Assembly: GCA_003696125.1 (NCBI GenBank)
Contig: RFHZ01000295.1
Location: forward strand, 1 to 5,038
Length of the DNA: 5,038 nucleotides
Direction of reading: 5' to 3'
Origin: Nitrospinota bacterium
GTDB lineage: Bacteria; Tectomicrobia; Entotheonellia; J063
Shown here piece by piece: positions 196 through 5,038 of this stretch (within the stretch, counting starts at the first letter, position 1; the number at the start of each line of letters is the position of its first letter). Below the pieces are notes generated by a model. The model searched no databases and was not told the DNA's origin. It saw only the letters and a list, made by a program, of their open reading frames with translations. Position numbers and translations under genes: made by a program.

Positions 196-937
196 GCATT
201 TCAAGACTTTAAATCCGTGGCCGATGTACAGACGAAATATCATAATTTATGAAGAGTTTACCTTTAGTACAACCTATGTAGATGTCCTGACTTCAGAAGC
301 ATCCCGGTGTGAGAATATCATCTATCCCATCTTACGAGAGATATACAAACACTATGTCGACAAGTTATCACTCTGGAGCCATAAGGCGATACGGGTTGAT
401 GAGGTGCTTTCCGGAGCAGCTGACTATATCTTCTCTCTCCGATCAGCATTGGGAAAAACGGTCTTAGAAAAACCGCTTGTCCTGGTAGCAGAGGCAAAGA
501 AAAGCGATTTTGAACAGGGCTGGGGACAATGCCTGGCTGTGTTAGTGGCGGCGCAACGGATGAAGGAAAACGAGCATCTTCCTGTCTATAGAATTGTCAC
601 TGATGGACAGCTCTGGCAATTTGGAAGATTGGTGGAGCAGGTGTTTACCGTGCATAAGTCTGCCGTGACCACCTCGGATTTGGATCGCCTGTTTGGCTAT
701 ATCAACGCCATACTGCACAATGCTGTCGAGATGATAGCCTTACCTACCGGTTCATGGAAAGTAGTGAATCATAGCCCATGCCGTCCCCTTCAGGAGAAGG
801 AGCAGAGAGATGACAGATCCCTCACCGGAGATGCCGCTAGCTTCCTGGCTGGATTTAGACGAGCGGTATCGGATTCAGAGTACAGCCCGCCTCCCCCTGA
901 TCCCCTGCCGGGGAGAAGGGGCCTATTTCTGGGATAG
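193..937 (+). pseudogene. Frameshifted PD-(D/E)XK nuclease-like protein, probably non-functional
   Basis: From the ATG at 193 the frame reads MAFQDFKSVADVQTKYHNL and stops at 250-252. The frame opening at 224 then carries the rest, beginning EEFTFSTTYVDVLTSEASRCE at its residue 10. The opening words and the later SEASRCE, LGKTVL, EAKKSDFEQGWGQC and VTDGQLWQFG segments match, as I recall, one family of roughly 200-residue uncharacterised proteins related to the HsdR N-terminal nuclease fold. The PD-(D/E)XK-like residues are D67, E90-x-K92 and Q98/Q102 in the 224 frame (237 codons). Removing one base near 245 would join the frames. However, the remembered family has about 20 more residues between the two parts, so an internal deletion of 3n+2 bases is also possible. 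Beyond about residue 172 the translation looks unlike the family and overlaps the aminotransferase gene by 128 nt, so the proper stop also appears lost. The region is more AT-rich than its neighbours, consistent with acquisition by transfer. The alternative is a sequencing error in an intact gene. Confidence 0.6.
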
Positions 938-2171
938 CGAGGGGAAACGCTATCTCGACTTTGAGTCTGGTCAGGTGTGTGTCTCTACCGGTCACTGCCA
1001 TCCGCAGATGGTGGAAGCGATCACCAGACAGGCCCATCTGTTGATGCAAACAGGCTCCGGATTTACCACCCTGCCCCAGATCCTGCTGGCCAAGCGCCTG
1101 GCCGAACTCTCCTCGCCTCCTCTCCAGAAGAGCTACTTTGCCTGTACCGGTTCCGAATCGAACGAAGCCGCCTTGCGTCTGGCCAAGGTCTATACCGGAC
1201 GCTTTGAAGTCGTGGCCCTGCTCCGTAGCTATCATGGACGGACCTTTGCCAGTTGGTCCCTGACCGGGATGGGAGGCTCTGCCCGGGCAGGATACGGTCC
1301 TCCCATGCCCGGGGTAACCTTTATCCCTGCCCCCTACGAGTACCGGTGTGGGTATTGCCAGAGCACAGGCACCTGCAACCTCTCCTGCTTTGACGCAGCC
1401 AGGGACCTGATTGACCGCTCGACTTCGGGTAAACCGGCCGCCGTCTTCTTCGAGTTTGTGTTGAGCGCCGGGGGCATGATCGTGGTGCCCCGTAACTGGG
1501 TCATGGCCCTCCAGGAGTTCTGCCGGGAACGAGATACCCTCCTTGTGGCCGACGAGGCGCAGACCGGAATCGGTCGGGCCGGCAACTGGTTCTGCTACCA
1601 GGAATACGGGATCGTCCCCGATATCGTTACCCTGTCGAAGAGCCTGGGAGGGGGAGTCCCCCTTTCTGCGGTCATCACCTCGGCCGCTGTTGCCGATGAT
1701 GCCGTGGCCAAAGGGTACATGCAGAGCTCTTCCCATACCGGCGATCCGCTCCTCTGTGCCGCAGGATTGGCCAATATCGACATCATCGAGAAGGAACAGA
1801 TCCTGGCCAATGTCAAAGAGGTCGGAGCCTATCTGAAGGCAGGATTACAGCAAATCCAGCACCGGTACGAGATCATCGGCGATGTGCGCGGCATCGGCCT
1901 TCTGCTCGGGGTAGAGTTCGTCGAGGACAGGGAGCGCAAGACTCCATCAAGCCGGCTGGCCACCGCGGTGTGGCGTCACTGCCAGGAACGGGGCCTCCAT
2001 CTCTCTTACCGGCCTCCGGCACATGGACATGCCGGTGTTCTTGCCGATAACGTGATCCGTTTCCTTCCCCCTCTGATCCTGACCCGTTCCCAGGCCGCCG
2101 AAGCGTTACAGATCTTTGAGGAGGGGGTAAAAGCGGCTGCCCGGGGCCAGGGGTCTCAAAAAATTTTATAA
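810..2171 (+). CDS. Class III PLP-dependent aminotransferase, resembling 2,2-dialkylglycine decarboxylase
   Basis: A 453-residue cytosolic fold-type I PLP enzyme of the usual family length. Visible landmarks, in order: SGQ (53-55), GHCHP (61-65), the phosphate-binding TGSESNEAA (113-121), aromatic plus histidine YHG (141-143), E215, DEAQTG (248-253, with D248 for the pyridine nitrogen), LSKSLGGG with Schiff-base lysine K277, a THTGDP-like segment SHTGDP (308-313), GDVRGIGLLLGVE (357-369) and R417 for the substrate carboxylate. The segments SGQ, DEAQTGIGR, PDIVTLSKSLG, GDVRG-GLLLGVE and IDRSTSG resemble Burkholderia dialkylglycine decarboxylase as I remember it, including its Q52, K272 and R406 equivalents. 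Its Trp138 is replaced by Tyr141. Substrate is therefore open: dialkylglycine decarboxylation with transamination, or an ordinary omega-amino or amine transamination. A loop with C180, C183, C189 and C193 is notable. The start is supported by AAGGAG (797-802), 7 nt before the ATG. No strong terminator follows. Confidence 0.9.
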   Translation: MTDPSPEMPLASWLDLDERYRIQSTARLPLIPCRGEGAYFWDSEGKRYLDFESGQVCVSTGHCHPQMVEAITRQAHLLMQTGSGFTTLPQILLAKRLAELSSPPLQKSYFACTGSESNEAALRLAKVYTGRFEVVALLRSYHGRTFASWSLTGMGGSARAGYGPPMPGVTFIPAPYEYRCGYCQSTGTCNLSCFDAARDLIDRSTSGKPAAVFFEFVLSAGGMIVVPRNWVMALQEFCRERDTLLVADEAQTGIGRAGNWFCYQEYGIVPDIVTLSKSLGGGVPLSAVITSAAVADDAVAKGYMQSSSHTGDPLLCAAGLANIDIIEKEQILANVKEVGAYLKAGLQQIQHRYEIIGDVRGIGLLLGVEFVEDRERKTPSSRLATAVWRHCQERGLHLSYRPPAHGHAGVLADNVIRFLPPLILTRSQAAEALQIFEEGVKAAARGQGSQKIL

Positions 2172-2296
2172 TCCTTGACTCAACTCTAAAGTTTTTTCAC
2201 ACACCAGAGGCGCTCTCCACCTCCCCCTCTTGCTCTCTATTCTTCTCAAGGCCTGCGAAATACGGCAAAAAATTTTTTCTTTCTGTGCTTTTCCCC
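2172..2296. other. Non-coding spacer upstream of the sigma-54 promoter
   Basis: No gene is supported here. The + strand is pyrimidine-rich from about 2210 to 2249. A6T6 lies at 2267-2278, ending 19 nt before the -24 element, and a related A6T4 overlaps the end of the aminotransferase gene (2158-2167). Such tracts bend DNA and could help an upstream activator reach sigma-54 polymerase. No clear IHF site, and no convincing inverted repeat of a known activator-site type, was seen. The weak AACT/AGTT hairpin followed by T6 (around 2182-2197) is too A/T-rich to call a terminator. Confidence 0.4.
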
Positions 2297-2312
2297 TGGC
2301 ACACCTCTTGCT
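2297..2312 (+). promoter_or_regulatory. Sigma-54 (RpoN) -24/-12 promoter of the chaperone cluster
   Basis: The sequence TGGCACACCTCTTGCT matches the sigma-54 consensus TGGCACG-N4-TTGCW at all but one fixed position. GG (2298-2299) and GC (2310-2311) are separated by exactly 10 nt, the invariant spacing. Transcription would be expected to start about 12 nt downstream, near 2322-2324, giving a leader of about 100 nt before hsp20. Such promoters need an AAA+ enhancer-binding activator, and none is encoded in the window. The orientation and position, directly before hsp20 and away from any coding region, support function. Confidence 0.8.
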
Positions 2313-2423: not shown

Positions 2424-2864
2424 ATGGCATTGGTGCGATGGGAACCTTTTGAAGGCATGACTCGGCTGCGCGAAGAGATGGATCGGCTGTTTGAAGACTT
2501 CTTTGGCAGCACTCCGCTGCGCCTGCGGGATGGAGGCCTGCTGGAGCCGGCCATCGAGGTGGCGGAGACCGATGAGGCGGTGGTGGTGAAGGCTCAGGTT
2601 CCTGGGGTGAGCAAAGACAACCTCAACCTGACCATCACCGACGATACCCTCACCCTGAAAGGGGAGGTCAAAGCGGAAGAAGAGCAGAAAGAGAAGAATT
2701 ACTACCGGCGTGAAATCCGCTACGGCTCCTTCCAGCGGACCATTCCGCTGCCGGTGGCGGTGAAGGCGGACCAGGCCAAAGCCCAGCTCAAGGATGGCAT
2801 CCTGCAGGTGACCATCCCCAAGAGCGAGGAGGCCAAGAGCAAGTCGATCCCGATCGAGGCGTAA
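2424..2864 (+). CDS. hsp20: Small heat-shock protein, Hsp20/alpha-crystallin family
   Basis: A 146-residue ATP-independent holdase, the normal size for class A bacterial small heat-shock proteins. Such proteins form oligomers that bind unfolding proteins and pass them to DnaK. The short N-terminal arm (1-40) has the usual amphipathic start, MALVRWEPFEG, followed by REEMDRLFEDFF. The alpha-crystallin domain spans about 41-133. It includes PAIEVAETDEAVVVKAQVPG (42-61), TLTLKGE (75-81), the dimerisation-loop region EKNYYRREIRYGSFQR (90-105) and the family signature around A120-x3-DGIL-x-VTIPK (to 133). The C-terminal anchor motif I-P-I is at 142-144. The start is supported by AAAGGAGG, 9 nt before the ATG. 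It is the first gene after a sigma-54 promoter and is followed by an intrinsic terminator, so it may be made in larger amounts than the downstream genes. The paired location with dnaK fits the chaperone relay. Confidence 0.95.
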   Translation: MALVRWEPFEGMTRLREEMDRLFEDFFGSTPLRLRDGGLLEPAIEVAETDEAVVVKAQVPGVSKDNLNLTITDDTLTLKGEVKAEEEQKEKNYYRREIRYGSFQRTIPLPVAVKADQAKAQLKDGILQVTIPKSEEAKSKSIPIEA

Positions 2865-2901: not shown

Positions 2902-2922
2902 CGTGGCAGGGTAAGCAAGCAG

Positions 2923-2950
2923 GGGGTCACCACGGTGACCCCTTTCTTTT
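2923..2950 (+). terminator. Rho-independent terminator after hsp20
   Basis: GGGGTCAC (2923-2930) pairs perfectly with GTGACCCC (2935-2942) around a CACG loop, with a further possible C-G closing pair and a G-U pair at the base. TTTCTTTT (2943-2950) follows directly. This is a strong GC stem with a T-rich tail, 58 nt after the hsp20 stop. It would end or attenuate transcripts between hsp20 and the coiled-coil gene/dnaK pair. Confidence 0.8.
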
Positions 2951-2964
2951 GCCCGAAAACGCAC

Positions 2965-3109
2965 CAGAACAGAGAAGAGTTCTGCCTCCTGGATGATCCT
3001 GGTGTCTGCTTCCAGGAGCATCGCTGCGCTATGACAGGAGCGGTGTCAGCCGCGGCTCCAGAGGAGACGGTTTGGCCCTGCAGTCGCAGGCATTGGCTCC
3101 TGTCAGGAG
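2965..3109 (+). other. Highly self-complementary non-coding region, possible structured RNA or leader
   Basis: Between the terminator and the next gene there is no credible reading frame but a chain of complementary segments. CAGAAC (2965-2970) pairs with GTTCTG (2979-2984). CTCCTGGA (2986-2993) pairs with TCCAGGAG (3011-3018). TGACAGGAGC (3032-3041) is matched exactly by GCTCCTGTCA (3096-3105), enclosing CTCC/GGAG (3056-3059 with 3063-3066), the palindrome AGCCGCGGCT (3048-3057) and CCTGC/GCAGG (3077-3081 with 3086-3090). CAGGAG occurs three times (3013, 3035, 3104) and CTCCTG twice (2986, 3097), so alternative pairings exist. CTCCTG at 3097-3102 can pair either with 3035-3040 or partly with the adjacent GGAG at 3106-3109. 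It may be a regulatory leader of the downstream genes or a small RNA. I do not recognise it as any known riboswitch. Confidence 0.45.
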
Positions 3110-3163: not shown

Positions 3164-3880
3164 ATGACCGGGCTGGCATTGCTTATCGCATGTGTGGCGC
3201 TCGTCTTCAGCGGAATCGCCTACTGGCGATCCGGTGGTCGTAGCGATGTAGAGCAGGCACGGGAAGAGATCCGGCGAGAACTCGAAACACTGCGTACCAG
3301 ACAGAAAGCGTTGATCGAAGCGCTGACCTACCGGATCCAGCGCGGATACGAGCAGTCTCTGCAGCGGATCAAGCAGGCCCAAAGGCGGTTGCAAGAGATG
3401 AAGGGGGAGACGGTGGAAGGACTGCAAAAGCGGATAGATCTGGCCATGCAGGATCTGGAGAGCTTAAAGCAGAAGGCAGAGCAGGGTATGGCTTCGGTGA
3501 GAGGAGGCGTGGTGGAGAAAGCGCATCAGGCAGAAGAAGCGGTGTCCCGTCGTGTGCGGAGAATCGAGGGACGTATCCAGATCCTGTCTGGCAAATCGAC
3601 CATCAACCGGGCACAGCGCTTCATCGAGAAGGAGGAGTTTGATCAGGCAGAAGAACTGCTCAAAGAAGCGGTTGATGAACTCAGGGAGGCGAAGAGGTAT
3701 CTCCCCGATTACGATCCGTCGCTGAATACGGCGCTCACCACACTCCGAGAAGCCCTGAAGGCGGTGCAGATGAAGGCAGAGGATCTGCGTACCAAAGTCG
3801 AACAGGTGATGAAAGAAAACGAGCAACTGCTCTCCGCCTTGGAGGGAGCAGAACAGGAGGAGGAGAAACACCATGGCTAA
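3164..3880 (+). CDS. Membrane-anchored coiled-coil protein of unknown function, coupled to dnaK
   Basis: 238 residues, not recognised as a named family. One N-terminal hydrophobic segment (about 4-21, [18 protein letters not shown]) is followed by Arg-rich sequence (from R22). By the positive-inside rule this puts the long C-terminal part in the cytoplasm. Residues 28-135 are almost wholly charged helical heptad-like sequence rich in E, R, K, Q and L, predicted as coiled coil. Residues 145-180 (with [20 protein letters not shown] at 153-172) look like one helix pair of the TPR type. A second helical stretch (187-227) ends in an acidic tail. A strong Shine-Dalgarno AGGAGG (3149-3154) lies 9 nt before the ATG. 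The end overlaps the dnaK start by 8 nt, so translational coupling is likely. By location it may tether or assist DnaK or Hsp20 at the membrane, but that is inference only. Size and coiled-coil style recall PspA, though PspA lacks a transmembrane segment and no homology is claimed. Confidence 0.8.
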
Positions 3881-5038
3881 AGCCGTAGGAATAGATCTGG
3901 GAACAACAAACTCGGTCATCGCCTACATGGAAGGGGATAAGCCGACCGTCATCGTCAATGCCGAGGGTGGCCGGACTACCCCCTCGGTGGTGGCCTACAA
4001 GGAGAACGGCGAACGCTTGGTAGGACAGCTGGCCAAGCGACAGGCCGTCTTAAACCCCAAAGGGACCATCTATTCGGCCAAGCGCTTCATCGGCCGGAAA
4101 TGGGATGAGGTAGAAGAGGAGAGCAAGATCGTCTCCTACAAGGTGGTGAGAGGACCGAACGACGCGGTCCGCTTTGAGGTGCATGGCAAGCAGATTGCCC
4201 CGGAAGAGGTCTCGGCTGCGGTACTGCGCAAGCTGGTCGATGATGCATCCAGGTTCCTGGGAGAGAAGATCACCGAGGCGGTGATCACCGTACCGGCCTA
4301 CTTTAACGATGCCCAGCGGCAGGCGACCAGAGACGCAGGCCGGATTGCGGGTCTCAACGTCTTGCGGATCATCAACGAGCCGACCGCTGCCGCCCTGGCT
4401 TACGGCATGGACAAGAAACAGCACGAGACGATCATGGTCTTCGATCTGGGAGGAGGAACGTTTGACGTCTCCATCCTGGATGTCGGGGATGGGGTCTGCG
4501 AAGTGCGGGCAACGGCCGGAGACTCCCACCTGGGGGGTGACGACTTTGACAAGCGGATCGTGGACTGGATGGCCGACGAGTTCAAGAAGGAGTACGGCAT
4601 CGAGCTGCGCAACGATCCGCAGGCGTTGCAACGACTCTACGAGGCGGCAGAGAAGGCGAAGTGTGAGCTCTCCAGCACCATGCAGACCGAGATCAACCTC
4701 CCCTTTATCACCGCCGATGCCAGCGGTCCCAAGCACCTGCAGATGACCCTGACCCGGGCCAAGTTTGAGGCCCTGACCCATGATCTGGTGCAACGCTGTA
4801 TCGGACCGGTCAAGCAGGCGCTGGCCGATGCCAAGCTCACCGAGAAGGATATCGATGAGGTGATCCTGGTCGGGGGATCGACCCGGATCCCGGCGGTGCA
4901 GGCGCTGGTGCGGCAGTTGACCGGTGGAAAAGAACCGAATATCAGTGTCAACCCTGATGAGGTCGTTGCTCTCGGTGCTGCCGTGCAGGCCGGCATCATC
5001 AAAGGGGAAGTGGAGGATGTGCTCCTGCTCGATGTGAC
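3873..5038 (+). CDS. dnaK: Chaperone DnaK (Hsp70), 3' end outside the window
   Basis: 388 complete codons are present, covering the whole nucleotide-binding domain and the start of the interdomain linker (EDVLLLDV, 381-388). The substrate-binding domain lies beyond the window. DnaK is the ATP-driven cytosolic Hsp70 that refolds proteins with DnaJ and GrpE. The three Hsp70 signatures are present: GIDLGTTNS (6-14), [14 protein letters not shown] (189-202) and [14 protein letters not shown] (330-343). Catalytic K70 (in SAKRFIG), [13 protein letters not shown] (140-152), [11 protein letters not shown] (168-178) and the GGDDFD loop (221-226) are also present. The segment around 77-100 is the extra piece typical of Gram-negative-type DnaKs. 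The start has a repeated GGAGG-rich Shine-Dalgarno (3856-3865), 7 nt upstream, inside the end of the preceding gene, whose stop is overlapped by 8 nt. grpE and dnaJ, its usual co-chaperone genes, are not in the window and may lie downstream. No CIRCE operator was seen. Confidence 0.98.

Follow-up and report, generated by a model that had tools for sequence, protein, structure and literature searches.

The phage-shock response is a stress operon controlled by sigma-54 together with an enhancer-binding protein, PspF, and a sigma-54 promoter has also been reported for ibpB, a small heat shock gene of E. coli, where it supplements sigma-32. Conserved activators have been noted in the PspF context (PMC4641369), and the hrcA-grpE genes of Chlamydia are under tandem sigma-66/sigma-54 promoters (PMC8762339). 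At a larger scale, sigma-54 control of GroES, GroEL, IbpA, GrpE, DnaJ and DnaK has been predicted, with enrichment in Planctomycetota and Bacteroidota (PMC12316311). Because control of chaperones by sigma-54 has already been predicted in these two phyla, the kind of control considered here is a known one, and the statement of a first-pass annotation that it is uncommon was too strong.

We analyzed a window of 5,038 bases, which is the entire contig C616 of the draft genome G000, a bin from an uncultured bacterium (4.18 Mb in 990 contigs, 94.8% complete, 8% contaminated), and compared it within its class to four relatives belonging to a sister family (G001-G004), for a set of five genomes. Like E. 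coli ibpB, the hsp20 gene of the window is a small heat shock gene with a sigma-54 promoter, but unlike ibpB it has no visible sigma-32-type or CIRCE element. As in the phage-shock response, stress genes would be under the control of sigma-54 and an enhancer-binding protein, here deduced from the promoter type, whereas the targets in this case are cytosolic chaperones. The systems of PMC12316311 resemble ours in that chaperones, including a small heat shock protein, are tied to -24/-12 promoters by comparative genomics; ours differs in lineage, in the presence of the hsp20 element in every one of the five class genomes examined, in the orthologous activator and upstream half-sites that the sister family adds, and in that CIRCE was not found in G000. 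The features of the window that bear on this comparison are the following.

2253..2269, plus strand: CTGCGAAATACGGCAAA, a candidate activator site and a weak lead, from sequence comparison by eye.
2267..2278, plus strand: A-tract AAAAAATTTTTT, a short way upstream of the -24 box (sequence; inverted repeat list).
2297..2312, plus strand: sigma-54 (-24/-12) element TGGCACACCTCTTGCT, with boxes TGGCAC and TTGCT separated by ACCTC, an exact consensus match.
2424..2864, plus strand: hsp20, small heat shock protein (Pfam PF00011, 82 bits).
2921..2944, plus strand: intrinsic terminator 3' of hsp20, predicted by folding, with a 10-bp stem, a 4-nt loop and a T-rich tail.
3164..3880, plus strand: orphan ORF from the ORF list, a predicted coiled coil, uncharacterized.
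3873..5036, plus strand: dnaK (Hsp70), N-terminal part, running off the contig (Pfam PF00012, 609 bits).

Elsewhere in the window, an ORF of 237 aa at 224-937 (+) has no Pfam match and overlaps the start of an aminotransferase ORF at 810.

The textbook sigma-54 site that the first-pass annotation had placed before hsp20 is borne out. TGGCACACCTCTTGCT matches TGGCAC-N5-TTGCW at every consensus position and has the GG-N10-GC spacing, with the GG at 2298-2299 and the GC at 2310-2311; its position predicts a start of the hsp20 transcript at approximately 2322-2324, and the hsp20 start codon lies 111 nt downstream of the element. It is the sole exact sigma-54 match within the window, and no such site arose when the window was dinucleotide-shuffled 200 times. 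Shuffling the 252-nt hsp20 upstream region produced one in 3 of 40,000 trials, a small but non-zero frequency that leaves some room for TGGCACACCTCTTGCT being a chance match, as does the observation that the genome-wide totals of exact sites in G001 and G002 are at the control level. Against this, eight hsp20 operons in the five genomes carry an exact site 65-157 nt upstream, whereas the density of sites in each genome would predict 0.006, in a test that was devised after the pattern had been noticed and in which the G002 start is approximate. These operons comprise two in G000, one each in G001, G002 and G003 (C2), and three in G004 (C163, C183 and C233). Since the site is conserved at hsp20 operons throughout the class genomes, the chance reading is contradicted, and we consider it highly improbable.

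When ten upstream regions of hsp20 and groES genes from the class were aligned, the -24 and -12 boxes were the sole strongly conserved blocks and were invariant except for one C-to-T change. The first-pass annotation had proposed a search of relatives for these boxes upstream of hsp20, and they were kept in all four. No exact sigma-54 site was identified at the hsp20 operons on C1 and C11 of G003, or at those on C909 and C152 of G000. Outside the class, exact sites lie near hsp20 in G011 and G043, both of which encode RpoN, and among 80 loci three further records have an hsp20 site, one from Poribacteria and two from Planctomycetota; the out-of-class loci with an exact site upstream of hsp20 are L020, L021, L117, L176 and L177.

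The machinery for sigma-54 transcription is encoded in G000, where we found RpoN (PF04552, 218 bits, on C633) and 22 hits of PF00158, the sigma-54 activator domain, approximately 20 of them strong. This genome contains 14 exact sites, compared to none for the reversed control, and 12 of the 14, by eye, lie in gene upstream regions. One of them, TGGCACGCCTCTTGCT, precedes an hsp20 paralogue on C692 that is ~60% identical to the window hsp20, and another, TGGCACACGAATTGCT, precedes groES on C252; a third hsp20, on C456, has a site with one mismatch. Among the relatives, RpoN is encoded in G001 and G002 and was not found in G003 (77% complete) or G004 (89% complete), which have 11 and 16 activator-domain matches, respectively. 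RpoN itself, the genome-wide enrichment, the C692 and groES sites and the conservation across the class together strongly support sigma-54 control of hsp20, with further support from the activator gene and upstream half-sites of the sister family described below. On these comparisons, the element at 2297-2312 is very probably a real promoter of hsp20 that would function with RpoN.

We also considered whether the main promoter of hsp20 might be one of sigma-70 or ECF type that escaped detection, in which case the sigma-54 element would be secondary and condition-specific. The tandem arrangement at Chlamydia hrcA-grpE (PMC8762339) provides a precedent, and the promoter rules of this lineage are not established. 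However, the best sigma-70 candidates upstream of hsp20 have just 7 of 12 matches, and the class alignment is strongly conserved at the -24 and -12 boxes only; we therefore regard this arrangement as unlikely. Nor did other known controls of heat shock genes appear: the window contained no CIRCE with up to three mismatches and no exact match to the sigma-32 consensus (CTTGAA and CCCCATNT boxes), which agrees with the earlier annotation on both counts. An RNA thermometer was rejected, as the folding of the hsp20 leader is no better than that of shuffles (z -0.7), and no ROSE or FourU match was present within the window. A second candidate sigma-54 site, TGGCCCTGCAGTCGCA at 3073-3088 before the coiled-coil gene, has two mismatches, is not above chance and was likewise discarded.

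The first-pass annotation had read hsp20, the coiled-coil ORF and dnaK as a single cluster driven by the sigma-54 promoter. The gene identities and their order stand; the single cluster is not supported, as a strong predicted terminator at 2921-2944 intervenes (41-nt fold of -21.9 kcal/mol, z -4.5, with none of 200 shuffles as good). Because this terminator directly follows hsp20, the promoter TGGCACACCTCTTGCT probably drives hsp20 alone, and the transcription of dnaK is probably separate from that of hsp20. The coiled-coil ORF begins 300 nt past hsp20 and its 3' end overlaps the start of dnaK. Its product, which as judged from the sequence is probably a membrane-anchored coiled coil, matches no Pfam or NCBIfam family, and no relative of it turned up in G001-G004 or in a scan of the genome contigs; the best PDB match (E 0.013) was taken as coiled-coil background and rejected as homology. 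The chaperone genes of the relatives are spaced more tightly than those of the window. The G003 operon reads hsp20x3-degP-dnaK-dnaJ and those of G004 read hsp20-hsp20-dnaK and hsp20-hsp20-clpB-like (apart from hsp20 and dnaK, the genes were named from sequence), and the window dnaK shares 88% identity with that of the G003 operon, which a sigma-54 site precedes.

We propose that sigma-54 RNA polymerase would occupy 2297-2312 in a closed complex, that an AAA+ enhancer-binding protein, once switched on by a stress signal, would use ATP to remodel this complex, and that transcription of hsp20 would start at approximately 2322-2324 only after such remodeling, with the transcript probably ending at 2921-2944 such that the unit would be hsp20 alone. 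The need for an AAA+ activator at this promoter, as the earlier annotation had claimed, follows from the way in which sigma-54 works. Across the class, sigma-54 would then act as a control of chaperones, and thus of proteostasis, at hsp20 operons of each of the five genomes and at groES in the G000 species. Within this scheme we infer both real transcription from TGGCACACCTCTTGCT and a signal tied to protein damage. It is conceivable instead that the promoter is real and that its activator answers some other signal, such as one from nutrients, redox state or the envelope, hsp20 being one of several genes that respond. Consistent with this, further exact sites of G000 precede genes that, as read from sequence, encode an outer-membrane export-type protein (adjoining an activator gene) and secreted or redox-type proteins, as well as a gene for a sigma-70-family factor. 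On the other side, the class has the element repeatedly before hsp20 operons, and several of these run into dnaK, degP or clpB; the site at groES of G000 extends the proteostasis set. A signal unrelated to damage is thus a serious possibility, though one that we do not favor. The sigma-70-family gene lies at 403-1758 (+) of C509 (L099), downstream of its exact sigma-54 site and upstream of a gene for a predicted anti-sigma factor, an arrangement that could represent a sigma cascade.

Among the sister-family genomes, a candidate activator was identified. The gene L264 of G003 encodes a sigma-54 activator and is located directly before the promoter of the hsp20x3-degP-dnaK-dnaJ operon. Its reciprocal best matches are L246 in G001 (64%) and L243 in G002 (62%), genomes in which strong activator matches are few (four and three, respectively), and a truncated orthologue, L269, is present in G004 (56-60%), such that all four sister-family genomes have an activator of this type. 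In addition, all five hsp20-pair operons of the sister family have four to five TGCRAC/GTYGCA half-sites each, compared to 0.24-0.35 in shuffles, located at -133 to -66 relative to the -24 box. On account of this co-occurrence and position, the L264-group activators are putative ligands of these half-sites. The half-sites are absent at the window, C692 and groES promoters of G000 and at C163 of G004, and a single activator site common to all promoters of the class was rejected on these grounds; a reciprocal-best orthologue of L264 was not found in G000. At the window promoter itself, CTGCGAAATACGGCAAA has the half-sites CTGC...GGCAAA in common with a repeat at groES, CTGCCATTTGGGCAAA, with a spacer that is longer by one base, a likeness that may be due to chance, and the A-tract AAAAAATTTTTT could correspond to a bend in the DNA.

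The groES gene of G000 provides a point of comparison with HrcA/CIRCE control, of which groES is a classic target. Genes for HrcA are present in all five class genomes, and CIRCE elements occur in G001-G004, at groES in all four, with perfect copies among those at groES. In contrast, G000 has hrcA, yet no CIRCE was found anywhere in its draft assembly with up to three mismatches allowed, an absence that is provisional because the assembly is incomplete, and groES has a sigma-54 site instead, at 6325-6310 (-) of C252 (L098). An activator gene, cut by the contig end, lies directly upstream of groES, and the exact 16-bp palindromic repeat CTGCCATTTGGGCAAA is found at -201 and -100 of the groES promoter. 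These two exact copies are the only ones in G000; a role for CTGCCATTTGGGCAAA as a genome-wide site was rejected, as it had 33 matches with up to three mismatches and the control had 45. A join of the truncated activator to C103 was rejected as well, since C103 overlaps C698 in sequence. The hrcA-grpE-dnaJ operon of G000 (C643; L087/L231) has upstream, at 2550-2568, the inverted repeat TCAAGAG-N5-CTCTTGA, which is possibly a diverged operator. We suggest tentatively, and short of expecting it to hold, that the core chaperone response has here shifted from HrcA/CIRCE to sigma-54, with CIRCE lost and hrcA kept, with groES having gained a sigma-54 promoter, a neighboring activator gene and a repeated palindrome, and with at least two hsp20 genes under the same type of promoter, so that an AAA+ activator sensing protein damage would be the heat-shock switch.

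Relative to the openly searchable literature, what is new here is the lineage, the finding that the element is conserved at hsp20, an activator candidate together with half-sites, and a replacement of CIRCE that may have taken place. As a sigma-54 promoter stays silent until an activator acts on it, the chaperone genes would be gated by a signal and not by the temperature-set levels of a sigma factor or repressor. Our findings suggest that, in this lineage, part of the defense against protein damage is turned on by a dedicated, signal-driven activator and not by the usual heat-shock controls. The class would thus offer a concrete system for asking through which signal protein damage is relayed to an AAA+ activator and, with the hsp20 promoter kept throughout, the activator and half-sites present in one family and CIRCE apparently lost in another, for following how heat-shock control is rewired during evolution.
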